Assembly (NCBI GenBank): GCA_020427345.1
Contig: JAGQOO010000005.1
Coordinates: 1-37,327 of the forward strand
DNA from: Phycisphaerales bacterium
GTDB taxonomy: Bacteria; Planctomycetota; Phycisphaerae; UBA1845; Fen-1342
Reading direction: 5' to 3'
Length of the DNA stretch: 37,327 nucleotides
Numbering within the stretch: the first letter of the stretch is position 1; every line of letters begins with the position of its first letter. Positions 22,565-37,327 of this stretch are shown piece by piece. Made by a program: the position numbers and the translations under genes. Under the pieces are notes generated by a model that was not told the origin of the DNA, did not search any database, and saw nothing but the letters and a program-made list of their open reading frames with translations.

Positions 22565-22596
22565 GGGCTGGTTCGAGACCGCTGAGTGGAGTGAGT

Positions 22597-23523
22597 ATGA
22601 GGCTCGGAAAAAAAGCGGTGTGGGTAAGCGTTCTGATGGCCGGCTCCGCGTCCGCTGCGCCGCTGTTCGACGCGTCGCTCGGCACAACGCCGTCGGCGCA
22701 GGGCTGGCCGTTGTTGCGCGATCCGATCCTCGGACATTCGGTCAGCGAAACGCTCGGGGCGGGCTTCACGGCGCTCGACTCGCGCAACCCGATCTCGGAC
22801 AAGGGCGGCTATTTCAGCGAAGATCCGTTCTTCGGCGTGCTGCGGCATCCGGCGTTCCCCGCCACGCTTGATCGGGTCGCCGGCTTCACGGTTCGCGTGG
22901 ACCTGCGTATTGTGGGCGAGAACCATCCGCCGCGCGACGACAACGGCGATGGCCTGGACGATCGCGCTGGGTTCAGCCTGATTGTCGTTACGGACGACCT
23001 GTCCGCCATCGAGATTGGCTTCTGGGATGATCAGGTGTGGGCGTACGAGGACGACGCATTTGTGGCGGGCGACTTCTTCACGCACGCCGAGTCGGCGTTG
23101 CTCGATACAACCGCGCAGTTGCGCAGTTATGCGCTGACAATTCTTGGTGATCGCTACACACTGCGCGTCGACGGCGCAACGCGACTCAGCGGGCCGCTCC
23201 GCGATTATTCAAGCTTCACCGGTTCGCCGAACGTGTACGCGATCGCGAACTTCGCGTTTTTTGGCGACGACACGAGTTCGGCCGAGGGCGCGGTCGAGTT
23301 GGCGTACTACGACATCACCGATGACGCGCCGCCGCATTGTCCGGCCGATCTAAACTTCGACGGCGTTGTGGACCTGTCGGATCTGGCGGGGTTGCTCGCG
23401 GCGTTTGGCGCCTGCGCCGGTGACGCGGCCTATTCCATCAGCGCCGACTTGAACAACGACGGCTGCGTAGAGCTTGCCGACCTGGCCGGGTTGCTGGCGG
23501 CCTTCGGAACGAGTTGCGGTTAG
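22597..23523 (+). CDS. Exported protein with C-terminal dockerin-type Ca-binding repeats
   Basis: A 308-residue protein. A signal peptide covers about 1-21 (GSASAAP). Residues about 25-240 look like a concanavalin-type beta sandwich with a Ca-loop DDNGDGLDD near 106-114. The C-terminus starts with CPADLN at 248 and holds two near-identical Asp-rich EF-like repeats (DLNFDGVVDLSDLAGLLAAF from 251 and DLNNDGCVELADLAGLLAAF from 284), ending in Cys-Gly. This paired dockerin-type module is widespread in Planctomycetota exported proteins. ATG 22597 is preceded by a GGAG about eight bases away; an in-frame GTG lies at 22591. No cohesin is visible in the window. Confidence 0.8.
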   Translation: MRLGKKAVWVSVLMAGSASAAPLFDASLGTTPSAQGWPLLRDPILGHSVSETLGAGFTALDSRNPISDKGGYFSEDPFFGVLRHPAFPATLDRVAGFTVRVDLRIVGENHPPRDDNGDGLDDRAGFSLIVVTDDLSAIEIGFWDDQVWAYEDDAFVAGDFFTHAESALLDTTAQLRSYALTILGDRYTLRVDGATRLSGPLRDYSSFTGSPNVYAIANFAFFGDDTSSAEGAVELAYYDITDDAPPHCPADLNFDGVVDLSDLAGLLAAFGACAGDAAYSISADLNNDGCVELADLAGLLAAFGTSCG

Positions 23524-23601: not shown

Positions 23602-24864
23602 GTGTCGCCGCTGACCGCAATCGCCATTAAGCGAATTCGCCGTGCCCGGCTGCTCGATCGAGACGGTCTGTTCCGAATCGACATTTCGGCGGGGCGCATC
23701 GCGGCCATTGAGGCTGAGCCGGAAGCGGAAGCGCCCGTCGCGCCAAGCGGCGAAGAGATCGATGGCGGCGGCATGGTCGTGACGGGCTGTCTGGTTGATC
23801 CGCATTTGCATCTCGATCTCGCGTATTCGCAGGACCTCGTCGGCCCGAATGAATCCGGAACGCTTCGTGAAGCGATTGGCCTGTGGTCCATCGCCAAGGC
23901 GACGATTTCGGCGGAGGACACGCGCCGGCGTGCGGAGAAGGCGATTCGCGCGGAAGTTGGCTTTGGGACGGGGCTGATTCGGAGTCATGTGGACGTGGCC
24001 AGCAACGCCGGTTTGCGTTTGACCGAGGGCGTGCTGGCCGCGCGCGAAGCGACGCGGGCGCTATGTGAGATCGACCTGGTCGCGTTTCCGCAGGATGGGC
24101 TCACTCGCGATCCGGGCGCGCTCGAAAACTGCGGCGCCGCGATCGACGCGGGCGTCGATCGAATGGGTGGCATTCCGCATGTCGAGGCCACGCGCGAAGA
24201 CGGCTTGCGCCATCTCGACGCGGTCTTCGATCTCGCGATGAAGAAAGACGTCGGGATCGATGTGCATATTGACGAAACCGACGACCCGAACAGCCGCTAC
24301 ACCGAGGCGCTCGCGGCCAAGACGATCGAGCGCGGCTATCAGGGTCGTGTAACGGCGTCTCACGTCTGCGCCCTTGCCAGCTATGACGAAGCCGGCGCCC
24401 AACGCGTGATGGATTTGATCGCCGAGGCTCGCATCAGTGTCGTGACCAATCCGGGCGTCAATCTGCACCTGCAAGGGCGGTATGATCGATATCCGAAGCG
24501 TCGTGGTCTGACGCGTATCGTCGACCTGCTGGCGCGCGGCGTCAGGTGCGCCGCCGGTCAGGATTGCATCCGCGACCCTTTCTATCCGTTCGGCAATGGC
24601 GCGATGCTGGACCAGGCCTGGCTGCTGGCGCACGCCGAGCACATGAGCCGGCCGGGGCAGATTCGGCAGGCCTTCGGTATGGTCTGCGAAATGGCGGCTG
24701 CCGTCGTTGGACGGGAGCATGGCGTGGAAGTCGGTAAGTCGGCGCGACTTGTCGTTCACGGCGCGGGCAATATCCAGGAACTCGTACGTTTGCGGCCGAC
24801 GCCAAGAGGCGTGTTATTTGACGGGATTATGACAGCGGGGGCGTCTATCGGGGGGCGAGGGTAA
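23602..24864 (+). CDS. CodA-like (cytosine deaminase family) amidohydrolase
   Basis: A 420-residue cytoplasmic zinc or iron hydrolase. Key residues of E. coli CodA are matched: DPHLHLD (H68, H70), VHIDETDDPNSR (H222 metal ligand, E225 catalytic), TASHVCAL (H254) and AGQDCIRDPFYPFGNG (D321). The stretch NLHLQGRYDRYPKRRGLTR is also CodA-like. The residue after the catalytic Asp, Asp314 in CodA and important for substrate choice, is Cys322 here, so the substrate may not be cytosine. The start is GTG 23602; GAGG lies too close for an ideal ribosome site, and a CTG at 23611 is an alternative. Its TAA is directly followed by the lpxA ATG. Confidence 0.85.
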   Translation: MSPLTAIAIKRIRRARLLDRDGLFRIDISAGRIAAIEAEPEAEAPVAPSGEEIDGGGMVVTGCLVDPHLHLDLAYSQDLVGPNESGTLREAIGLWSIAKATISAEDTRRRAEKAIRAEVGFGTGLIRSHVDVASNAGLRLTEGVLAAREATRALCEIDLVAFPQDGLTRDPGALENCGAAIDAGVDRMGGIPHVEATREDGLRHLDAVFDLAMKKDVGIDVHIDETDDPNSRYTEALAAKTIERGYQGRVTASHVCALASYDEAGAQRVMDLIAEARISVVTNPGVNLHLQGRYDRYPKRRGLTRIVDLLARGVRCAAGQDCIRDPFYPFGNGAMLDQAWLLAHAEHMSRPGQIRQAFGMVCEMAAAVVGREHGVEVGKSARLVVHGAGNIQELVRLRPTPRGVLFDGIMTAGASIGGRG

Positions 24865-25668
24865 ATGGCGATCCACGTGATGGCCGTTGTTGACCGTAAG
24901 GCGCACGTCGATTCGTCGGCGTCTGTCGGCGCCTATGCGGTGGTTTGTGCCGGGGCCGAGATTGGGGCCGGCGCCGAAATCTACCCGCATGTGTACATAT
25001 CCGAGGGCGCGCGGATCGGCCCACGGACGCAGATCCATCCATTCGCGGTGATTTCGCATCACCCGCAGGATGTGAAGTGGAAGAAGACGCCGAGCTACGC
25101 GCGAATCGGCGCTGATTGCGTCATTCGAGAGCACGCGACAGTGCATCGCGGCACCGAGCCGGAGAGCGAAACGATCATTGAGGACGGCGTCACGATGTTC
25201 GCCGGGGCGCATGTCGCGCATAACTGCCACGTGGAGGCCGGCGCATTGCTGATGAACCAGGCATTGCTGGCGGGGCACGTTCGCGTGGGGCGCAAGGCCA
25301 TCATTTCCGGCGGCACGGGCGCGCATCAGTTCTGCCGGATCGGGGAGATGGCAATGCTGGCCGGCGGATTGCGGGTAACGGGCGATGTGCCGCCCTTCAT
25401 GATGCTGGGGCCGGCGGGCGTGATGGGGCCGAACACCGTTGGGCTGCGACGGGCCGGCGTTGACGCGGAAACCCGGCAGGAATTGCGGCACGCCCATCGG
25501 CTGTTGTATCGATCGGGATTGCCGCTGTCGGACGCGATCGCGCGGGTGACGGCGGAAGTTCGGACCGACCTCGGCAAACGGCTGGCGGCGTGGTTGAATG
25601 AGCCGCGCAAGCGCGCGCTTGCCACGGGGCCAAGACATCGTGGCGTGGCCGTGACCGGCGAAGATTGA
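24865..25668 (+). CDS. lpxA: Acyl-ACP--UDP-N-acetylglucosamine O-acyltransferase
   Basis: A 267-residue cytoplasmic enzyme for the first step of lipid A synthesis. Residues 5-200 form the left-handed beta helix of hexapeptide repeats (GAYAVVCAGAEIGAGAEI and onward). The catalytic His equivalent to E. coli H125 is H119 in GAHVAHNCHV, followed by LLAGHVRVG, GAHQFCRIG and DVPPFMMLGPAG as in LpxA. The C-terminal helical bundle contains GLRRAGVDAETRQELRHAHR. Length is close to the usual 262. The ATG abuts the stop of the CodA-like gene with no gap. No other lipid A gene is nearby, so the pair looks like a coincidental or lineage-specific operon. Confidence 0.93.
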   Translation: MAIHVMAVVDRKAHVDSSASVGAYAVVCAGAEIGAGAEIYPHVYISEGARIGPRTQIHPFAVISHHPQDVKWKKTPSYARIGADCVIREHATVHRGTEPESETIIEDGVTMFAGAHVAHNCHVEAGALLMNQALLAGHVRVGRKAIISGGTGAHQFCRIGEMAMLAGGLRVTGDVPPFMMLGPAGVMGPNTVGLRRAGVDAETRQELRHAHRLLYRSGLPLSDAIARVTAEVRTDLGKRLAAWLNEPRKRALATGPRHRGVAVTGED

Positions 25669-25733: not shown

Positions 25734-27242
25734 ATGAACACAATGACACACGTTTCACGGGCAGCCGTCGTCGCCCTGACGCTCGGAAGCCTGAGCGGTT
25801 TCGGCTTTGCCCAGCCCAGCCCGGCAACTGTGATTGACGGCGCGACCATTCTCATCGGCGATGGCAAGACGATCGACAAGGGCGTGATTCAGATTCGCAA
25901 CGGCAAGATCAGCGCCGTCGGCGCGCATGTGCCGCCGGCGATGATGGCCGAGACCTTTTATGCAGACGGCAAGTTTGTAACGCCCGGTTTGATTGACGTG
26001 TGGACGACGCTGGGCGCATCGGCGGCGGCGTCCGGCGTTGGCGGCGACGCGGCTGACGCGATCAATCGCTATGACCGCGACGACATGATGGCCGCTATCC
26101 GCCATGGCGTGACGGCGGCGTATGTTCCAGCCGAGGCGGGCGATGGTGTAGGCGGGGTCGGCGCGGTTGTGCGGTATGCGCCGAAGGCCGGCGGCGTGTC
26201 GGTGTTGAAGGACCGCGCGGCGCTGCACGTCAGTGTCGGCGCCGGGCAGACGGCATTGCAGCGGCTCGCGTCGATTCAGAAGTTTGAGTCGATGTGGCGC
26301 AACGCGCTGGACTATCGCGACGCGCAGGAACGCTACAAGGAAGACCTCGAAGAATACGAGAAGAAGATCAAAGAGCGGGCGGAAAAGGCGGAGAAGGAAA
26401 AGAAGACCGACGAGGGCAAGGATAAGGCGGAGAAGAAGCCCGACGAGCCCAAGCCCGAGGAGAAGAAGGAAGAAAAGCCCAAACCGGACAAGCCGAAGAA
26501 GGGGCGCAAGCCCAAGACCGACGTGGCTCCGTTCGGGCTGGATTTGAGCGATATCGTCGCCGGCGGTTTTGACGAGCAGCCGCCAAAGCCGGAACAGAAG
26601 CCAGGCGAGGAAGGTAAGCCCGGCGAAAAGGCCGACGAGAAGAAGGAAGAGATCAAAAAGCCAGAGGCGCCGCCTAGGAATCCGGAGGCCGAAGCGCTGT
26701 TGGATGTGATTGACGGAAAGATCCGCGTGCGTGTGCATGCCGAGCGACCGGCTGAGATCGTCGCCGTGATCGAGGCGGCGAAGCGCTACAATCTTCCGTT
26801 GGTGTTGGAGGGCGCGAGCGGCGCCCGGTTTGTCGCCAAGTCGCTCAAGAAGCTCGAAGCGCCGGTCGTGTTTGGTGTAGAGCCGCAGACGATGCTCGAA
26901 TCGCCCGGCCCGATGCGCTACAACAGCTTTGACGCGGTCGTTCATGCGCGGCAAGCGGGCATCGAGGCCTACATGGGGTCCGGCGTGCCCGAGCAGACGC
27001 CGCAACTCGTGTCGCGAGCGGCTGCGGCGGTCGCCGCCGGGCTGCCGGAACGCGAGGCGCTGCCGATGATCACGTCGAAGGCCGCCACGCTGCTAGGTGT
27101 CGATGAGGAGATCGGCACGATCGAGGGCGGGCGCTCGGCGGACCTTGTGGTGTGGAGCGGCAATCCGTTCGCTCCGGGGGCGCAGGTGGAGCGCGTCTAT
27201 ATCGCCGGCGAGCTCGTGTACGACATCGAGGAAAACGAATGA
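25734..27242 (+). CDS. Array gene A: exported amidohydrolase-like protein with long Lys/Glu-rich insertion
   Basis: A 502-residue protein with a signal peptide (to about residue 27, GFGFAQ). The composite beta domain (ILIGDGKTIDKGVIQIRNGK) and the C-terminal GTIEGGRSADLVVWSGNPF (461-479) are those of imidazolonepropionase-like amidohydrolases. The metal HxH is absent: PGLIDVWTTLG (84-94) stands where PGxIDxHxH is expected. A His at the beta-5 position may survive (VRVHAERPAEI, H335), but the beta-6 position reads LVLEGASGA and the final Asp is missing (YMGSGVPEQ). Residues about 197-315 are an expanded Lys/Glu/Pro-rich, coiled-coil-like insertion. I chose ATG 25734; a second ATG lies nine bases on. 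It overlaps gene B by ATGA. Most likely a pseudoenzyme. Confidence 0.82.
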   Translation: MNTMTHVSRAAVVALTLGSLSGFGFAQPSPATVIDGATILIGDGKTIDKGVIQIRNGKISAVGAHVPPAMMAETFYADGKFVTPGLIDVWTTLGASAAASGVGGDAADAINRYDRDDMMAAIRHGVTAAYVPAEAGDGVGGVGAVVRYAPKAGGVSVLKDRAALHVSVGAGQTALQRLASIQKFESMWRNALDYRDAQERYKEDLEEYEKKIKERAEKAEKEKKTDEGKDKAEKKPDEPKPEEKKEEKPKPDKPKKGRKPKTDVAPFGLDLSDIVAGGFDEQPPKPEQKPGEEGKPGEKADEKKEEIKKPEAPPRNPEAEALLDVIDGKIRVRVHAERPAEIVAVIEAAKRYNLPLVLEGASGARFVAKSLKKLEAPVVFGVEPQTMLESPGPMRYNSFDAVVHARQAGIEAYMGSGVPEQTPQLVSRAAAAVAAGLPEREALPMITSKAATLLGVDEEIGTIEGGRSADLVVWSGNPFAPGAQVERVYIAGELVYDIEENE

Positions 27243-28408
27243 CCGCCCCGCGCGTATGCTGGATCATCGCAGGTTTCGCGCTTGGCGCGGTTGTCGCTCG
27301 GGGTGACACGCTCCGCATTACTGCGGATGGATGGATCGATCCGACCGGCAAGCTTGTCAAAGGGCCTGTCGCGGTGGAGGTCGCCGACGGCTACTTCAAG
27401 GCCGCTCCCGCGCCGATCGAACCGGGCTCGCCCGTGGCGGACAAAACAACGACGTATGAGGGCGCCATCCTATGTCCGGGACTGGTCGACGTGTCGGCCG
27501 CGCTCGGCGCCCTGAGTCAATTGACGGAAGACGCCGATTCGTTTCAACCGGATCTGACGACGCGAGACGCGTTCGATCGGTTTGGTCCGCGCCTGCATCG
27601 GGCACTGGAGGCCGGTGTAACGACTTTCGGTCTGGCGCCGGACGATCAGAATGTCATCGGTGGTCGCATCGCTGTTTGCAAGACGTTTGGCGAAGACGGA
27701 AAACCGCGCGTCATCGACGCATACGGGCCGCTCAAACTTTCACTTTCGCCCGCGGTGTTCCAGCGAGATCGGGCGCCGACGTCGCGCAGCGGCGCGCTGG
27801 GGATGCTGACCCACGCCGTCGACGGCGCCCATCACAAGGCGACGACGGCGCAAGACGATGATCCCAAAGACGCGCTGATGTTGTTTTCGTATGGGGCGCT
27901 GCAGGGTGTGATTTCGGCGCCGTCAGCCGCGGATGTGCTCTACGCGCTTGACTTGCAGTCCAGATACGGTCTGAAGTTGGTGATTGCCCACACCATGGAC
28001 GCGTTCGAAACCGCCGACTTGCTCGGCAAGGCCGAGGCGACGGTGATCGTCGGGCCGCTAACCTGGTCCTCAACGGAGCGCGAGCAGCGCGCGCCCGGTT
28101 TGTTGAGCAAAGCCGGCGCCGATGTCGTCGTTGCGGGCGGGCTGCCGCTTGCGCCGGCGAATGCGCTGCGGATCGGCGCGTCTCTCGCCAGCCGATGCGG
28201 GCTGGAACTGAACGCCGCGCGCCGCGCGATCACGATCGAACCGGCCCGGGCGCTGCGCATCGATGATCGTGTCGGCTCAATCCAGGGCGGTCGATCGGCG
28301 GACTTCGTGGTATTCAGCGGCGATCCGCTCGATCTGCGATCGCGGGTTCTCGCCGTGTATGTCGACGGCGCGCCGGCTTTTGTCGCGCCGAAACAAGATG
28401 TGGAGTAG
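27239..28408 (+). CDS. Array gene B: exported amidohydrolase-like protein, metal site degenerate
   Basis: A 389-residue protein with an N-terminal hydrophobic export signal (about 6-21). It is the shortest complete member and carries no charged insertion. The HxH region reads CPGLVDVSAALG (79-90). The beta-6 His appears kept (LVIAHTMDAFETADLL, H251), while the final Asp position reads VVAGGLPLA. The end has GSIQGGRSADFVVFSGDPLD (346-365), the shared family tail. Its ATG overlaps the stop of gene A (ATGA at 27239-27242), which implies coupled translation. Catalysis by the usual mechanism seems impossible; a structural or regulatory role is inferred. Confidence 0.8.
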   Translation: MTAPRVCWIIAGFALGAVVARGDTLRITADGWIDPTGKLVKGPVAVEVADGYFKAAPAPIEPGSPVADKTTTYEGAILCPGLVDVSAALGALSQLTEDADSFQPDLTTRDAFDRFGPRLHRALEAGVTTFGLAPDDQNVIGGRIAVCKTFGEDGKPRVIDAYGPLKLSLSPAVFQRDRAPTSRSGALGMLTHAVDGAHHKATTAQDDDPKDALMLFSYGALQGVISAPSAADVLYALDLQSRYGLKLVIAHTMDAFETADLLGKAEATVIVGPLTWSSTEREQRAPGLLSKAGADVVVAGGLPLAPANALRIGASLASRCGLELNAARRAITIEPARALRIDDRVGSIQGGRSADFVVFSGDPLDLRSRVLAVYVDGAPAFVAPKQDVE

Positions 28409-28412
28409 TACG

Positions 28413-29993
28413 ATGTTGAAGTCACGAGAAATCACAACCGTGCGATCGGCGATAGCGCTGATTGCGACGGCGCTTGTCGCGTTCCCTGCGTTCGCCGGGG
28501 TCACCGCGATCAAGGCGAAGCGCATCCTTACTGGCGCCGGCGAGGCGATCGACAATGGCGTCATCGTCATCACCGATGGCAAGATTACCGCGATCGGACC
28601 GGGCCTCGCGGTCCCGAGCGGCGCCAAGACGATCGACTGCGGCGACAAGACGATTACGCCCGGGCTGGTCGACGCCTGCTGCGTGCTGAATTTCGATGTG
28701 CAGCAAAGCTGGGGCTGGCGCGGTGGGGCAGCGGCCGAAGAGGCGCCGAAACTCGCGTCTCGCGTCGTCGGTCCGGAAGGCGCATTGATCGACACCGGCG
28801 CTGAAGCGCCGCCGCATCGGGACCTCGAAGGCGACGACAGCTACTACATCGAGCCCGATCCGCGCCCGGCGGCGACGGATACAACGCTTTGTGGCCCATG
28901 GTCGCGCATTGCCGCCATCGCCGCCGAGCATGCGCGACACACGCTGCTTGGCGAACCTTGCGTTTGCGGCTCGTCGCAGCTTGCGCCGGAGGGCGAAAGC
29001 TCGTTTGCGCCCTCGGTCGGCCCCTATTTCATCTGGGGCGACAACGAGGCCGAGGTGATTCCGCATCGGCGCGTGCTCGATTCGGTGAACCTGATGTCGC
29101 TGGATTTTCAGCGCTTACTGAGCGAAGGCGTGACGACGGTGTTCGTTTCGCCCGATTCGGCGAGTGTGATCGCGGCGCGCGGCGCAATCGTAAAGACTGG
29201 TGGGGCGCTGGGCGATCGCGTTGTTCGCGCCGAAGACGCGGTAAAGGCGTCGATGGGCGCGGATCCGAGCCGGCGCGGCTGGAGCAATCAACTGCCGTAC
29301 GGCGGGCGCGCCACGATGTATACACGACGCCCGACGACGCGCATGGGTGTTGAGTGGGTGTTTCGCAAAGCGTTTTTCGATGCGCGTCGTTACGCTGCCG
29401 GGCTGGCGTTGACCGGCGCTGACGTCGCCCCGACCGAGGCCTTCGATGTGCTGAATTCCGTGCTTGCCGGTGAGACGCCGCTGCGGATTCAAGTTCGCAA
29501 GCAGCACGATATGTTCACGGCGCTGCGTCTGGCGAAGGAATTCGGGATCAAGCCGCTGCTCGAAGAGGGCACTGAGGCGTATCAGACGATTCCGCTATTG
29601 AAGGAATCGCACACGCCGATCGTATTCGGCCCGTTGTATATGGAATCTGACGGTTATCGCGCGTTCAGTGGTGAGACGGACGAGGCGCGGCTTTCTACGC
29701 CTAAGCTGCTGCAGGACGCGGGTGTGGAGTGGGCGCTGACAGCGCAGGAAGGGCGCGGCGAAGAGAGCCTGCCGCGCCAGGCGATGATCGCGATCCGCTA
29801 TGGGCTGGAGCCCGCGCAGGCGTTGACCGCGGTTACGTCTTCGCCGGCAAAGCTGATGAATCTGGAAGGCCGCGTCGGCGCGTTGAAGGTCGGCGCGGAT
29901 GCGGATCTGGTGGTGTGGTCGGGCGAGCCGTTCGCGGCGACAAGCCGGCCGGAAAAGGTGTTGATCAACGGACAGGTGGCCTATGAACGATAG
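28413..29993 (+). CDS. Array gene C: exported amidohydrolase-like protein, metal site lost
   Basis: A 526-residue protein with a clear signal peptide (residues 1-28, FPAFA). The HxH site reads PGLVDACCVLN (83-93). The insertion between beta-1 and the barrel is longer than in its neighbours (about 95-225) and holds three closely placed Cys (160, 183, 185). The beta-6 segment LLEEGTEAYQTIPLLKES has Glu where active relatives have LEHGTEAY. The final Asp region reads ALTAQEGRGEESLP. The tail GALKVGADADLVVWSGEPF is typical. GGAG at 28402-28405 supports ATG 28413, four bases after gene B; an ATG at 28398 is a weaker choice. It overlaps gene D by 11 bases. Confidence 0.8.
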   Translation: MLKSREITTVRSAIALIATALVAFPAFAGVTAIKAKRILTGAGEAIDNGVIVITDGKITAIGPGLAVPSGAKTIDCGDKTITPGLVDACCVLNFDVQQSWGWRGGAAAEEAPKLASRVVGPEGALIDTGAEAPPHRDLEGDDSYYIEPDPRPAATDTTLCGPWSRIAAIAAEHARHTLLGEPCVCGSSQLAPEGESSFAPSVGPYFIWGDNEAEVIPHRRVLDSVNLMSLDFQRLLSEGVTTVFVSPDSASVIAARGAIVKTGGALGDRVVRAEDAVKASMGADPSRRGWSNQLPYGGRATMYTRRPTTRMGVEWVFRKAFFDARRYAAGLALTGADVAPTEAFDVLNSVLAGETPLRIQVRKQHDMFTALRLAKEFGIKPLLEEGTEAYQTIPLLKESHTPIVFGPLYMESDGYRAFSGETDEARLSTPKLLQDAGVEWALTAQEGRGEESLPRQAMIAIRYGLEPAQALTAVTSSPAKLMNLEGRVGALKVGADADLVVWSGEPFAATSRPEKVLINGQVAYER

Positions 29994-31383
29994 GGCGGGT
30001 GGATCGAGTCGAACGCGTTGCGCGGCCATCGCGGTTCCGGTATTGGCGGCGTGGCTTGCCGCATCCACGTTTGCGCAGGCGCCCGAGCGCGTCGCGCTAA
30101 CCGAGGCGCGTGTGCTTCCGATTTCTGGCCCGCCGATCGAGAACGCGACCGTTCTGATCGAGCGCGGCAAGATCAAGGAAGTCGGGCGCGACGTGGCGAT
30201 TCCGTTCGATGCGCGCGTCTTCAAACTCAAGGGCAAAACGATCATGCCGGGCATGATCAACCCGGACGATTGGCGCGGCCTGGACACGCCGAATGAGTCG
30301 CGCCCGGTGACCGCCCACCTTGACGCGTTTGACGCGATCGATCCGTCGCGGTTGTTTTTCGAAGACGAACTGCGGCTGGGGATCACGGCGATCCACACGC
30401 TGCCCGCGGGAAACTGCACGATCGGCGGCATCGGCCGCGTTGTGCGACCGATCGGGCTAAGTCCGGCGGAAATGGTGTTCGGCGAGGGCGAGTTCCTCAA
30501 AGTCAGCGTGTCGCCGCGCGGCGGGGCCGACCGCATTGTCCAATTGGGGCTGCTGCGTGAGACGTTCCGCGAGTTGCAGGACTATCAGGACCGGCTCGCC
30601 GAAAAACGCTACGAAGAGAAACTGAAAGAAGACGAGAAGGACATCGACGTTGGGCCTGAGGAAGCGAAGAAGCGCGGCCGCGATCTGATTCGCGCGCAGG
30701 ACATCGACGAGGAACATCGCAATCTGCTTCGCCTCACCGGCGGTAAGGTCAAGGTGCTGGGTGAGGAGGGGCCGCAAGTGTTCGAGCCGCTTGGCGCGTT
30801 CATCGAATGCGCCGGCGCGACGGATGTCGGCGCGGCGGTGCGCATCGCGCGCGATAACGGCTTTATCGACCGCACTGTGTTGTGTCTCGGGCCGGAATGT
30901 TACAAGGCGATCGACGAGATCAAGGAGTCGGGGCGGCCGGTGGTGCTGCCCGGCAACCTTGTCTATGAGGAAACCGATCCGCTGACCGGAAAACGCAGCG
31001 AGACGTTCGTTGTGACGAGGTTCGCGGACGCTGGCGTAAAATTCGCATTGTCGCCGGGGAGTAACAGTTCCCTGCCGGAACGGATGCTGACCTATCAGGC
31101 GGCGAGGTGCGTGCGCGAGGGCGTACGCCGCGACGTCGCGCTAAAGGCGATCACGCTGAATGCGGCCGAGATCATCGGCCAGGCCGATCGACTCGGCTCG
31201 ATCGAAGCCGGTAAGGACGGCACGGTTGTGGTCTTCAGCGGCGACCCGCTCGATTTCAGCAGCGTCATCGAAATGGTCTTCATCGAGGGCATCCCGGTTT
31301 ACAACCGCGCGACCGACCGCCGGATTCAGCGTCTGATCAGCCACAGCGACACCCCGGAAGGCGCCGATGACAAGCCGGAATAA
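29983..31383 (+). CDS. Array gene D: exported amidohydrolase-like protein, metal site lost
   Basis: A 466-residue protein with an export signal ending near STFAQA (33). The motif position reads MPGMINPDDWRG (88-99), so HxH is gone. A Lys in FLKVSVSPRGGADRIVQLG aligns with the candidate ligand Lys of gene F. A charged helical insertion at about 195-250 (YQDRLAEKRYEEKLKEDEK) matches the insertion site in A and G. Beta-6 reads LCLGPECYKAIDEI with no His, and the Asp region reads ALSPGSNSSLPERM. The tail GSIEAGKDGTVVVFSGDPLD is kept. The start ATG lies within the end of gene C; the end overlaps gene E by 17 bases. Probable pseudoenzyme. Confidence 0.8.
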   Translation: MNDRAGGSSRTRCAAIAVPVLAAWLAASTFAQAPERVALTEARVLPISGPPIENATVLIERGKIKEVGRDVAIPFDARVFKLKGKTIMPGMINPDDWRGLDTPNESRPVTAHLDAFDAIDPSRLFFEDELRLGITAIHTLPAGNCTIGGIGRVVRPIGLSPAEMVFGEGEFLKVSVSPRGGADRIVQLGLLRETFRELQDYQDRLAEKRYEEKLKEDEKDIDVGPEEAKKRGRDLIRAQDIDEEHRNLLRLTGGKVKVLGEEGPQVFEPLGAFIECAGATDVGAAVRIARDNGFIDRTVLCLGPECYKAIDEIKESGRPVVLPGNLVYEETDPLTGKRSETFVVTRFADAGVKFALSPGSNSSLPERMLTYQAARCVREGVRRDVALKAITLNAAEIIGQADRLGSIEAGKDGTVVVFSGDPLDFSSVIEMVFIEGIPVYNRATDRRIQRLISHSDTPEGADDKPE

Positions 31384-34174
31384 ACGCGGCATGGCGCCGA
31401 TCGCGCTGGCGTGCCTGCTTGCGATCAGCGCATCGGCGAGTTCGCTCGCCGCTGATTCATTTGCGATTCGCGCCAAGCGCGTCTACCCATGCGGGGATCG
31501 CGGCGCGCAGGCGATCGAAAACGGCGTCGTCGTGGTTCGCGACGGCCGCATCGTCGCGGTCGGCGCCGATGTGCCAATTCCAAGTGACCTGCTGTTGATT
31601 GACCTGCCAGATGGCGTTGTTTGCCCCGGGTTCGTGGACGCGGGAACCGATCTCGTCGGTCCGCACTATGGAGACGAGTCGGTTTCAGGCGTCTATCGCG
31701 CGATTGACGGGTTTGATCGTTACGGCGACTACCGCACGCTGCTGGAAACGGGCGTGACGACGGCGAGTATCGATCCCGGCTCGCATCGGTTGATCAGCGG
31801 CCGGGCGGCGGTGGTGCGGCTTGGCGGCGATCCGGCGTCGCGTGTGCTGGTGGCGGACGGCGCGATCACGATCAACCTTGGCGTGTTCGGCGCGCAGCCG
31901 ATCGTGCATGTGCCGTTTTATGCGTCGTCTGATGAGATGATTCAACCCGGTCGCGCGCAGCGTCCGTCGTCGCGACTCAGCGCGCTGGCCGAGGCGCAGG
32001 ATCAGATTCGTCGGGCGGCAATGGGGATGCCGCAGAAGCGCTACGACATTCACGAACTCGCCTTCGCCGAGGCATGGCGATCGCAGGCGCCGGTTCGCGT
32101 GCAGGCGCGCGAGGCGGTGGATATCGAAGGCGCGATGCGGCTCTTGAGCGGCCAGCAGCGCGCATGCTGTGTCGTCGGGCTGACCGAAGCGGACGATGTG
32201 GCGAACGAACTGATCGCCAGCGGTCTTCCGATCGTGCTATCGCTTGAGTCGAGTTATCGCTGGCCGGCCCGCGACCTCGGGCCGAGCGAGGACGCGATGA
32301 CCGATGGCGCCGAGAGCGCCGGCGCGGTTGGCCGCGCCCGCGCGGGTGATTCGCCGATCGCGCTGACGGGCCGCGGGCAAGGGCCCATTGCTGATCTGCG
32401 CATGATCGCGGCCTTGGCGATGCGCGGCGGCATGCCGCGCGATCTGGCATTGCGCGCCATCACCTCGGCCCCCGCGAAGATCCTCGGTGTGGAGGATCGC
32501 GTCGGCGCCATCGCGCCCGGGCGCGATGCGGACATTCTGGTGCTCTCCGGCGACCCGCTGGATATCAACTCGCGCGTGCTGCGCACGTACATCGCAGGGA
32601 AGGTCGCGTACGAGGCGCCGCGCGGCAGCGGCGCGCTGGTCGTGCGAGCTGGACACGTTTGGACCGGCGAGTCGATGATGACCGATGCGCAGGTCCTCGT
32701 TGAAAATGGAAAAATCGCGGCTGTTGGCGCGCGTGTGCCGCATCCGCGCGACGCGCGCATCATCGACGCGGGCCCGGACGCCTTTGTTACGCCCGGCTTC
32801 ATCGATGGGCACGGTCATCTCGGCTTTGAAGGCGATCGCGGCGCCGCCGGCCCGGATGTCAGTCCGCACTTGCTCGCTGCCGTGGCGAATCGCGAGTTTC
32901 ATCGCGTCGCCCGCGCCGGCGTAACGACGGTGATGCAAACGTCATATGGCCCGAGCCAGGCCGGTTCGCGCATCTCCGCGATCAAGACGTGGGGCGTCGG
33001 ATACGAGCGCATGGTGGCCCAGGAACTGGCCGGCATGTACTTCTCGATGACCGGCCAGGAGCCGAGCCAGGGCGCCAGCCGGATCAAACAGGCGCTGGAA
33101 GCCGGCAAGAAGTATGAGGAGGAGTGGAAGAAGTACTACGACGAGTTGAAGAAGTGGAAGGAAGCGAAGGCCGCCGGCAAGAAGGTTGAAGTCAAAGACG
33201 AGAAACCCAAGGAAGAAAAAGAAGAGAAGGTCGATCCGATTACCGGCTTGTGGGACTACAGCGTAACGGGCGATCCACTGCCTGAGCCGGTGGAAGGACC
33301 AATGACGCTGGAGCTCGACGGCACGAAGATTACGGGCAAGTTGAGCGATCCGATGGGCGAGGCGGAGGTTGAGCTCAGCGGGACGCTGAACGGCACGTCA
33401 GTGCGGCTCGAAGTGGAGGCCGACACCGACCTCGGCAAACCGGTGATTAACGCCGAGCTTGACGTCGAAGACCACATGAAGGGCACGGCCGGGCTCGGCG
33501 ACATGTTCACGTTCCAGTTTGAGGCCACGCGCGTCGAGCGCGGGAAGGTGCAGATCACAATGAAGCGCAGTCGCTCGCGCGGCAAAGACGGCAAGCCGGT
33601 CCCGCCGAAGATCAACGAAGCGCTGGAGCCGATTCGCATGCTGCTCAAGGGTGAGATTCCCGCGCTCGTCGCGGCGGACACTCCGGCGGAGATCAGCGCG
33701 GCGCTGGAACTGCTGGTGGACGAATACAAGATACCCGTCGTGCTGCTTGACGCGACGGAGGCGACGGCGGTTGTCGAGGACTTGAAGAAACGTGCAGAGA
33801 ATGTCGGCGTTGTGGCGCCGACGCGCGTCGAGCGCATGCGCGATGAGCGTCCCTATGCCGAGGCGGTCGATCTCGCGGGGCAGGGCGTGCGCGTCGCATT
33901 GCAGAGTAACGCCGAGGACGGCGCGCGGAGCCTGCCCAACATGGCGCTGTTCGCCGTCAGCCTGGGAATGGGCGGCGACGCGGCGTTGCGGGCGCTCACG
34001 ATCGACGCCGCCCGCATGTACAGAGTGGATGACCACGTGGGCCGGCTCGCGCCGGGCTGCGATGGCGACGTGTTGATTTTCAGCGGACATCCGTTCGACG
34101 CCGATTCGCGCCTGGAGCGCGTCATCGTTGGTGGCGAGGAAGTTCCTGAGCACTACGAAGAGATTTTCGAATGA
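31367..34174 (+). CDS. Array gene E: double amidohydrolase-like protein with inserted beta-rich domain
   Basis: A 935-residue exported protein (signal to about residue 29, SSLAAD) made of two amidohydrolase-like units in one chain. Unit 1 (about 30-417) has CPGFVDAGTDLVG (86-98) without HxH and ends with GAIAPGRDADILVLSGDPLD (380-399). Unit 2 (about 423-935) keeps HxH in PGFIDGHGHLGFEG (H482, H484). Its beta-6 segment reads VVLLDATEATAVVED and its Asp region LQSNAEDGARSLP, so it still lacks a full site. Unit 2 is interrupted by a Lys/Glu-rich helix (578-622) and a separate beta-rich domain (about 625-735: GLWDYSVTG, MTLELDGTKITGKL). It overlaps genes D and F at its ends, the latter by ATGA. 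Confidence 0.82.
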   Translation: MTSRNKRGMAPIALACLLAISASASSLAADSFAIRAKRVYPCGDRGAQAIENGVVVVRDGRIVAVGADVPIPSDLLLIDLPDGVVCPGFVDAGTDLVGPHYGDESVSGVYRAIDGFDRYGDYRTLLETGVTTASIDPGSHRLISGRAAVVRLGGDPASRVLVADGAITINLGVFGAQPIVHVPFYASSDEMIQPGRAQRPSSRLSALAEAQDQIRRAAMGMPQKRYDIHELAFAEAWRSQAPVRVQAREAVDIEGAMRLLSGQQRACCVVGLTEADDVANELIASGLPIVLSLESSYRWPARDLGPSEDAMTDGAESAGAVGRARAGDSPIALTGRGQGPIADLRMIAALAMRGGMPRDLALRAITSAPAKILGVEDRVGAIAPGRDADILVLSGDPLDINSRVLRTYIAGKVAYEAPRGSGALVVRAGHVWTGESMMTDAQVLVENGKIAAVGARVPHPRDARIIDAGPDAFVTPGFIDGHGHLGFEGDRGAAGPDVSPHLLAAVANREFHRVARAGVTTVMQTSYGPSQAGSRISAIKTWGVGYERMVAQELAGMYFSMTGQEPSQGASRIKQALEAGKKYEEEWKKYYDELKKWKEAKAAGKKVEVKDEKPKEEKEEKVDPITGLWDYSVTGDPLPEPVEGPMTLELDGTKITGKLSDPMGEAEVELSGTLNGTSVRLEVEADTDLGKPVINAELDVEDHMKGTAGLGDMFTFQFEATRVERGKVQITMKRSRSRGKDGKPVPPKINEALEPIRMLLKGEIPALVAADTPAEISAALELLVDEYKIPVVLLDATEATAVVEDLKKRAENVGVVAPTRVERMRDERPYAEAVDLAGQGVRVALQSNAEDGARSLPNMALFAVSLGMGGDAALRALTIDAARMYRVDDHVGRLAPGCDGDVLIFSGHPFDADSRLERVIVGGEEVPEHYEEIFE

Positions 34175-35427
34175 GAAGTGGCTTGATCAAAACGAATCTG
34201 ATAGGAATCGCGTTCGGGTTCGCGACGGCGATCGTGGCGCCGGCGCTGGCGGACCAGGCGCCCGTCGGACACGCGTTTGTTGTCGCAAAAGTCGTCTCGA
34301 TGGATGACAGCGACACCGTAGTCAATGACGCGGTCGTCCTCGTGCGCGACGGCAAGATCGAGACCGTGGGTGAAGCGGATCAGGTCACAATCCCCGCCGG
34401 CTATGCCGTGCATCATTTCGAGGATCGCTGGCTCGCGCCGGGTCTTGTTGAGGGCCACAATCACACGTCCGGTGGGCTCGGCGACCTGAACGACATGGTG
34501 TACCTGACGAATCCCGGGCTCGATACGCGTTCGGCGATCGATCCGGACAATGACCTGATCAAACGCGCCCGCATGGGCGGCGTCACGACGGTCATGCTGA
34601 TTCCGGGCAGCGGCACGAACATGAGCGGGCTCGGCACGTTGACCAAGACCGCCGGCAAGGACCCGTGCGACGTCATCATCCGCTCGCCCGGTTCGCTGAA
34701 GATCGCCCAAGCCGGCAACCCCGAATGGTACTTCGGCGGCGTCGGGCGCTCTTTCATGAACTGGAATACGCGTCAGACACTGCTGAAGGCGCGCGACTAT
34801 CACCTCGCATGGGAGCGCTTCGAGAAAGGCGAGACGACCGTCAAGCCGGAGTTCGATCCGACTTTTGAGCCATTCCGCGGATTGTTCCGAAAGGAGTACC
34901 CCGCGACGGTCCACACGCAGATCTATCAGGTGTTGATGACCACAGTCGACATGGTCGCCAACAAACTCGACATCTGGACGGTGCTGGATCACTGCACGTT
35001 CGACGCATGGAAAGTCGCGCCGCTCGTCAACAAGTCGTCGTGCTGGACGATCAACGGCCCGCGCCAATACCAGTTCGACCGCACCGCCCGCCGGATGATC
35101 GGCAACGCATCCGGCTGGTGGAAGAACGGCGTGCACAAACTCGGCATCAACACCGACGCGCCTGTCGTACCGGAGGCGGAATTGAGCTACCAGGCGGCAA
35201 TGGCGTGCTGGTATGGATGGGAGCCCTATCCGGCGTTGCGCGGCGTGACGGCGGTGCCGGCGAAAGCGCTCGGAGTTTACGATCGCGTCGGCAGCATTCA
35301 GGTCGGCAAGGACGCGGACTTCGGCATCTGGACGGGCAACCCGCTCGATCCGCGCTCGGCCTGTCTGATGTTGATGGTCAACGGCAAAATCGCGTATGAC
35401 GGCACAACCGGCGTTCGCCGCTTCTAA
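34171..35427 (+). CDS. Array gene F: exported amidohydrolase, the only member with a complete metal site
   Basis: A 418-residue protein with a signal peptide (about 1-28, APALAD). All ligand positions of a binuclear amidohydrolase are present: HxH at H96 and H98 (LVEGHNHTSG), a Lys candidate for carboxylation at K177 (SLKIAQAGNPEWYFG), H248 (ATVHTQIYQV), H274 (VLDHCTFDAW) and D329 (GINTDAPV). The segment around K177 resembles the LKMAxGENPK stretch of imidazolonepropionase-like exported hydrolases. It lacks the long charged insertion of its neighbours. The tail GSIQVGKDADFGIWTGNPLD is standard. Its ATG overlaps the stop of gene E (ATGA). Likely hydrolyses a cyclic amide or peptide-like substrate in the periplasm; substrate unknown. 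Confidence 0.85.
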   Translation: MRSGLIKTNLIGIAFGFATAIVAPALADQAPVGHAFVVAKVVSMDDSDTVVNDAVVLVRDGKIETVGEADQVTIPAGYAVHHFEDRWLAPGLVEGHNHTSGGLGDLNDMVYLTNPGLDTRSAIDPDNDLIKRARMGGVTTVMLIPGSGTNMSGLGTLTKTAGKDPCDVIIRSPGSLKIAQAGNPEWYFGGVGRSFMNWNTRQTLLKARDYHLAWERFEKGETTVKPEFDPTFEPFRGLFRKEYPATVHTQIYQVLMTTVDMVANKLDIWTVLDHCTFDAWKVAPLVNKSSCWTINGPRQYQFDRTARRMIGNASGWWKNGVHKLGINTDAPVVPEAELSYQAAMACWYGWEPYPALRGVTAVPAKALGVYDRVGSIQVGKDADFGIWTGNPLDPRSACLMLMVNGKIAYDGTTGVRRF

Positions 35428-35448
35428 TCAAAGGACGACTTGAACCGT

Positions 35449-36948
35449 ATGAATGCTGGCAAGACGCAACACCTCTTGATTCGGGCCATCGCGACGGCGG
35501 CGCTGCTGACGGCGCTGCCCGCGTCCGCGGACGAGCCGCCGAAACCGGCTGAGGCGCCCGCTGCGGAGGCCGCCAAGGCCGAACCGCAGGTCGAGTTGAC
35601 CGCGGAAGATCTCGCCGAAGACAACCCGATCGAGCGCGTCGTCGTCATTCGCGCCGGCAAGGTCATCACGAACAATGGCGATGACGTCGAGAACGGGATC
35701 GTCGTCATCAAGGACGGCGTGGTATCGGCGGTCGGTCGTCTGGTGGAGTACCCGCTGAACGCGAAAGTGATCGACGCGCGCGACCAGGTGGTCATGCCGG
35801 GCATGATTCACGTCGTCAGCACGTACTATGGCGAGGACACGCCGCGCATCCGCTACAACCGCAACGGCAACAACGCCAACCGCACCGTCAAGGACGATCT
35901 CGCGAGCTTCGATCACGATTTTTCGCCATTGCTGAAGAGTGGCTTTACTGCGCAGGCGCTGCTGCCAGTCGGCGGGGGCATCATCGGCAAGAGCACGCTC
36001 ATCCGCACGGACGGGCCGGCGGACAAGCGGGAAGTCGACACGAAACGCCAGTATGTGTACGTTTCGAATGACAAGTCGGCGTTGCGCGACGCTCTCAAAG
36101 GCGCGAAGAAGGAAATCGAAAAGCGCGAAGAGGCCAAAAAGAAGTGGGAAGAGCAGCAGAAGAAGATGAAGGAAGAGCAGGAGAAAAAGGCGCGGGAGCA
36201 GAAAGAGAAAGAGGAAAAGGAAAAGAAGGGCGACGGCAAGGACGACAAGAAGGCGCCTGCCGAGGCGTTCTCGCTTGATACGCCGCCGCCCACACCGCCA
36301 CCGAATCCACAACCAGCCGAAGCCCCCAAGAAGGACGAGCCGGCCGAGTTTCAGCCGCCGAAGATTCCGCCGCCGCTCGAGCCCTTTGTCGACCTGATCG
36401 AAAAGAAAGAAGGCCTGTTCGCGCTGATCGAGTTAGATCGCGCGTCTGACCTGCTTCATATGAATGACGCGATGCGCGGGTTTGAAATCGCGCATGAGTT
36501 CCTTCTCGAGAATGACCCGCAAAGCGACTTCTACTACGTCCAGGACAAGCTGATCGAATCCAAACCCAAGCTCGTCCTTTGGCCGCGCCACAGCGCGATC
36601 CCGTCGTCGACCGAACTGCTCGATCTTGCCGGCGACCTGGCCCGTGGCGGCTGCGAACTGAGCTTCATGCCGCTCGCGGACAACGAGCGCGAGTTTGAGC
36701 GATTTCTCCCGCGTGTCGCGGAACTCGTGCGCGAGGGGCTTTCGCGCGAAACGGCGCTGAAAGCAATGACGCTCAACCCTGCCCAACTGCTCGGGGTGGA
36801 TGAACAGTTCGGCTCCATCCAGGAGGGGCGGCAGGGCGATCTGATCGTGCTTGATGGCGACCCGCTCGACGGGCTTTCCCGCGTTCAAAAGGTGCTGATC
36901 GCCGGTGAAGTCGTCTTTGATCGCGCGCGACAGGAGGACGACGAGTGA
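35449..36948 (+). CDS. Array gene G: exported amidohydrolase-like protein with Lys/Glu- and Pro-rich insertions
   Basis: A 499-residue protein with a signal peptide (to about residue 26, LPASADE). The motif position reads MPGMIHVVSTYYGED, with one His but no HxH. A highly charged helix (GAKKEIEKREEAKKKW and onward, about 60 residues) is followed by a Pro-rich stretch (PPPTPPPNPQPAEAPKKDE) at the same position as the insertions in A and D. Beta-6 and Asp positions are lost (LVLWPRHSAIPSS; SFMPLADNEREFE). The tail GSIQEGRQGDLIVLDGDPLD is present. I used ATG 35449; TTG 35440, closer to AAGGA at 35431-35435, is equally possible. It is the only array member with a gap over 20 bases (21) to the previous gene. 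Probable pseudoenzyme. Confidence 0.8.
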   Translation: MNAGKTQHLLIRAIATAALLTALPASADEPPKPAEAPAAEAAKAEPQVELTAEDLAEDNPIERVVVIRAGKVITNNGDDVENGIVVIKDGVVSAVGRLVEYPLNAKVIDARDQVVMPGMIHVVSTYYGEDTPRIRYNRNGNNANRTVKDDLASFDHDFSPLLKSGFTAQALLPVGGGIIGKSTLIRTDGPADKREVDTKRQYVYVSNDKSALRDALKGAKKEIEKREEAKKKWEEQQKKMKEEQEKKAREQKEKEEKEKKGDGKDDKKAPAEAFSLDTPPPTPPPNPQPAEAPKKDEPAEFQPPKIPPPLEPFVDLIEKKEGLFALIELDRASDLLHMNDAMRGFEIAHEFLLENDPQSDFYYVQDKLIESKPKLVLWPRHSAIPSSTELLDLAGDLARGGCELSFMPLADNEREFERFLPRVAELVREGLSRETALKAMTLNPAQLLGVDEQFGSIQEGRQGDLIVLDGDPLDGLSRVQKVLIAGEVVFDRARQEDDE

Positions 36949-37327
36949 TCCGGCGTTTCATACTGTCGATCGCGGTAGTGACGTTTGCGGCGCCGGCGCT
37001 GGGCGAATCGCCGACGCCACGGCAGGGATTACCGAATCCGGAACCGCAGGTTTCGCCGATCGACAAGCCGCCCGAGGGTGAACAGAAACCGGCCGAGGAC
37101 GAAAAGCCGGATGAGAAGAAGAAGAAAAAAGAGGATACTTGGTTTGCGGTGGTGAACGGGCGCGTGCGGACCATCACGGGGCCGTCGTACGAGAACGCGA
37201 CGGTGCTATGCCGTAACGGCGACGTTTTTGCCATCGGCGCGGATGTCAAGCTGCCGGAAAAGTGCGAGACGCTCGACGCGCGCGGGATGTTCGTTTACCC
37301 CGGCCTCGTCGCGGCCGGCGCGGGCGG
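36945..37327 (+). CDS. Array gene H: amidohydrolase-like protein, 5' part only
   Basis: The frame starts with GTG 36945, overlapping the stop of gene G (GTGA), with AGGAGG at 36932-36937 seven bases upstream. It runs off the right edge after 127 codons. The visible part has an export signal (ILSIAVVTFAAPALGE), a Pro/Glu/Lys-rich spacer ending in KKKKKED (about 40-65), then the composite beta domain (VVNGRVRTITGPSYENATVL). The last residues read YPGLVAAGAG where PGxIDxHxH would be, so HxH is already lost. It shows that the array continues beyond the window. Confidence 0.8.
   Translation, partial: MIRRFILSIAVVTFAAPALGESPTPRQGLPNPEPQVSPIDKPPEGEQKPAEDEKPDEKKKKKEDTWFAVVNGRVRTITGPSYENATVLCRNGDVFAIGADVKLPEKCETLDARGMFVYPGLVAAGAG

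Follow-up and report, generated by a model that had tools for sequence, protein, structure and literature searches.

Pseudoenzymes are usually seen singly beside an active relative, and the pseudo-subunits of other heteromeric enzymes replace catalytic ones. Among the amidohydrolases, isoaspartyl dipeptidase and Sgx9260b/c, which are relatives of the intact protein F described below, are homo-octamers (PMC11511702). In the aspartate transcarbamoylase dodecamer of Pseudomonas, the inactive amidohydrolase-fold protein pDHO is needed for both assembly and activity (PMC7053772). The secreted metal-dependent bile salt hydrolases of Bilophila are exported enzymes of the amidohydrolase superfamily that occur in two or three tandem copies (PMC13081902).

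The locus presented here lies in a window of 37,327 b, by which we mean the whole stretch of DNA that was analysed. It belongs to a gene array in which eight ligand-free units are kept in fixed order with one predicted catalytic family across much of the phylum Planctomycetota. The automatic annotation 'amidohydrolase' wrongly implies eight or more active enzymes.

Gene layout of the array

The window corresponds to one entire contig (C411) of a 3.52-Mb assembly in 455 contigs. Within positions 25734-37327, eight open and co-directional genes, A to H, overlap or almost touch each other, and together they encode nine amidohydrolase-fold units (Table 1). The overlaps are 4 bases at A/B, E/F and G/H, 11 bases at B/C, 11 bases at C/D and 17 bases at D/E, and F and G are separated by a 12-base gap. 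The co-directional arrangement and the overlaps reported in the first-pass annotation for A/B, C/D, D/E, E/F and G/H all match these values. Genes A to G score above the cut-off for Pfam Amidohydro_1/3. Gene H is cut by the contig end, and its remainder was located on another contig of the same assembly (C448:3-1172); this part is likewise above the Pfam cut-off and, compared with the array genes of relatives, matches H best. It aligns about five residues past the window piece of H, and an unrelated gene on the opposite strand then follows. Thus, the array ends at H and comprises eight genes and nine units, so that the initial description of eight or more genes was correct for the eight and not for any further ones. 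A continuation of the array on contig C433 was also considered and rejected, as H continues on C448 and C433 carries a separate three-unit gene from another locus.

The surroundings of the array were inspected as well. Directly upstream, A is preceded in the same orientation by an LpxA-like acyltransferase gene (24865-25668), and in eight distant loci an LpxA-like gene adjoins A on the opposite strand. Downstream of H, 23 loci (among L097-L142) carry a TrpD-like glycosyl transferase family 3 gene in the same orientation as H. Both genes are recurrent and neither is universal, and no conserved partner gene was found outside the array. The window further contains a separate amidohydrolase-family gene outside the array (23602-24864; Amidohydro_3, 1.2e-29) and a gene for a putative exported protein whose C-terminus carries a dockerin type I-like repeat that falls slightly short of the Pfam cut-off (22591-23523).

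Table 1. Features of the amidohydrolase array, in window positions
Feature	Position	Strand	Description
Gene A	25734..27242	+	amidohydrolase-fold unit with predicted export leader, ligand-free (DVWTTLG), K/E-rich insert
Gene B	27239..28408	+	ligand-free unit (DVSAALG)
Gene C	28398..29993	+	ligand-free unit (DACCVLN)
Gene D	29983..31383	+	ligand-poor unit; window copy NPDDWRG
Gene E, whole	31367..34174	+	two fused amidohydrolase units
Gene E, unit 1 (E1)	31367..32620	+	ligand-free (DAGTDLVG)
Gene E, unit 2 (E2)	32627..34174	+	GHGH = HxH retained in window; K, H, H, D lost; fused to E1
E2 insert	33245..33541	+	eight-stranded beta domain, protein residues 627-725 (AlphaFold2 model)
Gene F	34171..35427	+	intact predicted catalytic subunit, all six ligands
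F ligands H96 + H98	34456..34464	+	HxH, strand beta-1
F ligand K177	34699..34701	+	strand beta-4, candidate carboxylated lysine
F ligand H248	34912..34914	+	strand beta-5
F ligand H274	34990..34992	+	strand beta-6
F ligand D329	35155..35157	+	end of beta-8
Gene G	35440..36948	+	ligand-free (HVVSTYYG), K/E-rich insert; start TTG 35440 or ATG 35449
Gene H, first 127 codons	36945..37327	+	ligand-free (AAGAG); continues on C448:3-1172

Conservation of the array across Planctomycetota

A scan of 84,980 species with a profile of F resulted in 115 confirmed loci, 80 of which were kept for analysis; their labels name Planctomycetota or one of its groups, or read simply 'bacterium' or uncultured 'bacterium'. 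In all 80 loci the genes share a strand and follow the order A-B-C-D-E-(F)1-4-G-H, without inversion or reordering, which places the pattern far beyond chance and bears out the conserved synteny that had been anticipated for a functional set. The array is complete in 55 of the loci and cut by contig or locus ends in the others, except for one locus that consists of a lone F (L112). This locus was rejected as a case of F without the array, since the same genome (G432) has the array on another contig. The presence of a lone extra F away from the array suggests, on the other hand, that F may also work alone.

The number of F copies differs between the loci: 41 of the 80 have one, 23 have two, eight have three and eight have four. 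Many of the three- and four-copy arrays (L095-L142) show an HTHIH motif in the copy that adjoins G. In multi-copy arrays, the last F, beside G, forms a clade of its own (35/36, support 0.99), indicating that the F copies are old and probably specialised. The G-adjoining copy is probably a catalytic subunit with a specialised role.

In an even sample of 392 genomes of the phylum, F was found in 104 (E<=1e-60), and the best F places were compared in 103 of these. Among the 100 genomes in which both F and D were listed, 90 have D on the contig and strand of F, upstream of it, and in the remaining 10, all of them fragmented assemblies, D is located on a different contig. Array parts are present also in the three genomes without a listed D and in the genome with the lone F locus, mostly at contig ends. 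The intact and the inactive genes are co-inherited. They are also tightly coupled, with 451 of 499 junctions overlapping or at most 30 bases long, a figure that is an upper estimate because the gene starts were chosen automatically. The exact 4-base overlap recurs at 44 of 67 G/H junctions and at 42 of 70 E/F junctions.

A hydrophobic leader was detected in 132 of 144 F sequences and in 67-94% of the orthologues of the other genes, depending on the gene. These leaders were identified by a hydropathy scan, and to that extent they support the export signals proposed in the first-pass annotation.

Metal sites, fold and related gene arrangements

F is the sole array gene with all six metal ligands (H96, H98, K177, H248, H274 and D329), which are located on or beside strands beta-1, 4, 5, 6 and 8 of the model, as the binuclear amidohydrolase superfamily requires. 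The six ligands are invariant across 42 diverse F sequences and, gaps aside, are kept in every copy (F1 from 80 loci, F2 from 39, F3 from 16 and F4 from 8). The F model (pLDDT 90.2) shows the barrel and beta-sandwich fold of the family, and its closest PDB match is 3ooq (TM 0.80/0.87), which is also the best solved relative of F by sequence (E 1.4e-50). This structure is that of a Thermotoga maritima amidohydrolase, for which the entry names no more specific function.

None of the units A, B, C, D, E1, E2, G and H has the complete set of six ligands. The HxH motif is absent from A, B, C, D, E1, G and H in all 58-74 orthologues per gene (58/58 for A and 60/60 for B); the alignment has gaps at the beta-6 position for A, E1 and H and at the second His for D. 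In the window copy of E2, HxH is kept, and the Lys, both later His and the Asp are changed to Y, A, D and N, respectively. As four of the six ligands of E2 are gone, eight of the nine array units are ligand-deficient. The seven broken sites counted originally are those of the units that lack HxH, and the count was too low by E2. The first-pass annotation had also regarded the locus as a set of pseudoenzymes. Ligand-free paralogues are indeed kept, but the set is built around an intact F that had been overlooked, which shifts the reading towards an enzyme with pseudoenzyme partners.

In profile-profile comparisons (hhalign), A, B, C, D, E1, E2, G and H matched the F family over the whole domain with Prob 100 and E-values of about 1e-63 or lower (A 1.4e-63, B 1.2e-69). 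The model of the ligand-free E1 likewise has 3ooq as its top match (Z 42.5, 356 residues, 2.9 A), so the fold outlives the metal site. In the AlphaFold2 model of E2, a long helix (residues 566-602) precedes the inserted beta domain; the insert gave no significant Pfam match and has no second copy in the source genome. The C-terminal tail that had been pointed out as common to the members is shared, but it is a motif with which amidohydrolases ordinarily end. Many NCBIfam families match the same region, and the idea of a tag peculiar to the array proteins was rejected for this reason.

Intact and degenerate units are combined in two further gene arrangements. The gene on C433 (C433:153-4385, minus strand; genome G000, locus L009) encodes a putative exported protein of 1410 residues with three amidohydrolase units. 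Its middle unit has all six ligands and its outer two lack HxH (6/6 orthologues), and the protein is present in 14 of 41 relatives, both with and without the array. In addition, relatives carry two-gene amidohydrolase pairs (L028-L032, L038-L043). The first gene of the pair (PGLVDTHSHIGG) has all six ligands (10/10), and the second (PGLIDAHSVVGL) retains neither the second His nor the Lys, the beta-5 His or the Asp (10/10). Altogether, three gene arrangements mix intact and degenerate units, and in two of them, E and the three-unit protein, units are covalently fused. These natural fusions and the pairing of intact with degenerate units imply physical association.

Selection on the ligand-free genes and alternative readings

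The dN/dS ratios were estimated by the Nei-Gojobori method from up to eleven close pairs, not all of which are independent. The medians for the F copies were 0.061 (F1), 0.068 (F2), 0.056 (F3) and 0.062 (F4), and those for the other genes were 0.075 (D), 0.080 (C), 0.085 (H), 0.098 (E), 0.122 (B), 0.122 (G) and 0.132 (A). The ligand-free genes are thus under purifying selection nearly as firm as that on F, with A, B and G somewhat looser, and none of them is neutral. These values bear on the notion that tandem duplication of F gave rise to the ligand-free genes and that these are now decaying. Such an origin could be suspected from genes that are paralogous, adjacent and devoid of catalytic residues, but the ratio stays within 0.03-0.25 for every gene in every close pair, the frames are open in the 80 loci and the order is conserved across many families. 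Therefore, decay was rejected, and we give it practically no credence. The only irregularity was a gene C spread over two frames in a single locus (L087:3699-5343), which could be a sequencing error. Apart from this, the scattered, frame-shifted or absent members that the first-pass annotation had named as signs against a functional set were not seen, and its preference for such a set over decay is upheld by the synteny and the selection data.

It is a different matter whether the ligand-free members act with F or beside it. They could be stand-alone exported binding proteins that use the barrel as a ligand-binding cup, so that F would be the sole enzyme, no stable complex would form and each gene would bind, buffer or present a different compound. 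Several former ligand positions now hold other, conserved residues, which fits re-used pockets: in C, the beta-5 His is replaced by Gln in 50 of 62 orthologues and the beta-6 His by Glu in 37 of 62, in G the second HxH position is Arg in 51 of 74, and in A one former position is Gly in 51 of 58. A TRRPTTRMGVE motif is moreover near-invariant among the C orthologues. Strict order, overlapping-gene coupling and all-or-none presence nevertheless exceed the needs of independent binders, and the fusions of degenerate with intact units point to physical association, so we regard independent binding proteins as unlikely. Even less probable, in our opinion, is that the operon encodes a degradation pathway of several steps in which a number of the 'broken' members are enzymes of altered chemistry, with a single metal, different ligands or no metal. 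Mononuclear members do exist in the amidohydrolase superfamily, D mostly keeps just the first His (52/65) and the Lys (56/65), and the E2 orthologues have the second His in 48 of 77 cases and the Asp in 29 of 77. However, no ligand-free group retains enough residues for any known metal site of the superfamily, and in A, B, E1 and H the residues at the former ligand positions are highly variable.

Proposed assembly and comparison with described systems

The explanation that we favour, and hold to be probable, is that the array is an operon whose products form a hetero-oligomeric, exported amidohydrolase: F would be its catalytic member and the eight pseudo-units its scaffold or regulators. F, in one to four paralogous copies depending on the lineage, is predicted to be the binuclear-metal catalytic subunit. 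A, B, C, D, the fused E1-E2, G and H, which have kept the barrel fold and lost the metal site, could occupy places in the assembly around F, where they would serve as scaffold, recognise the substrate or regulate the enzyme. The complex would be exported to the periplasm or the outer envelope; an envelope complex, offered as an example in the first-pass annotation, would be plausible. Its substrate may be a small amide, such as a dipeptide or an N-acyl amino acid, because the nearest characterised relatives are Cc2672-type carboxypeptidases, prolidases and imidazolonepropionases. We infer with moderate confidence that units encoded together are also assembled together, and separate proteins that serve a common process would be consistent with the observations as well. 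As the unit number varies from 9 to 12 with the F copies, a simple replacement of positions in an octamer does not give matching counts.

More tentatively, and with somewhat more doubt than trust, the array can be pictured as a phylum-wide exported machine of at least nine different units of one fold, eight of them pseudoenzymes, with room for one to four catalytic subunits that can stand in for each other. To our knowledge, such a machine, if real, would be the most subunit-rich single-fold pseudoenzyme complex in bacteria. The cell envelope biology of Planctomycetota is poorly understood, and the array gives the phylum a conserved, putatively exported system. Together with the three-unit fusion and the two-gene pair, it offers a clear example from nature in which to study why enzymes take on inactive copies of themselves.

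No published description of such an array was found in the literature searched, in which subscription journals were thinly covered. The fold and the use of pseudo-subunits are of known kinds, and the number of pseudo-units, their fixed order and their phylum-wide spread are new to us. In its full fold and ligand set, F resembles 3ooq, the Cc2672/Sgx9260-type M38 carboxypeptidases, prolidases and imidazolonepropionases. Those amidohydrolases are homo-oligomers of intact subunits, whereas the array encodes eight site-less units of the same fold in a fixed order with F. The tandem copies of Bilophila are described as enzymes, and the available text of that report describes no ligand-free paralogue set (PMC13081902). 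In the case of pDHO, too, a catalytically inactive amidohydrolase-fold subunit supports a partner enzyme; for the array, such a partnership is proposed. pDHO is a single pseudo-subunit that serves an unrelated partner enzyme in the cytosol (PMC7053772), while the array combines eight different pseudo-units with a putative catalytic member of their own fold and carries predicted export signals.
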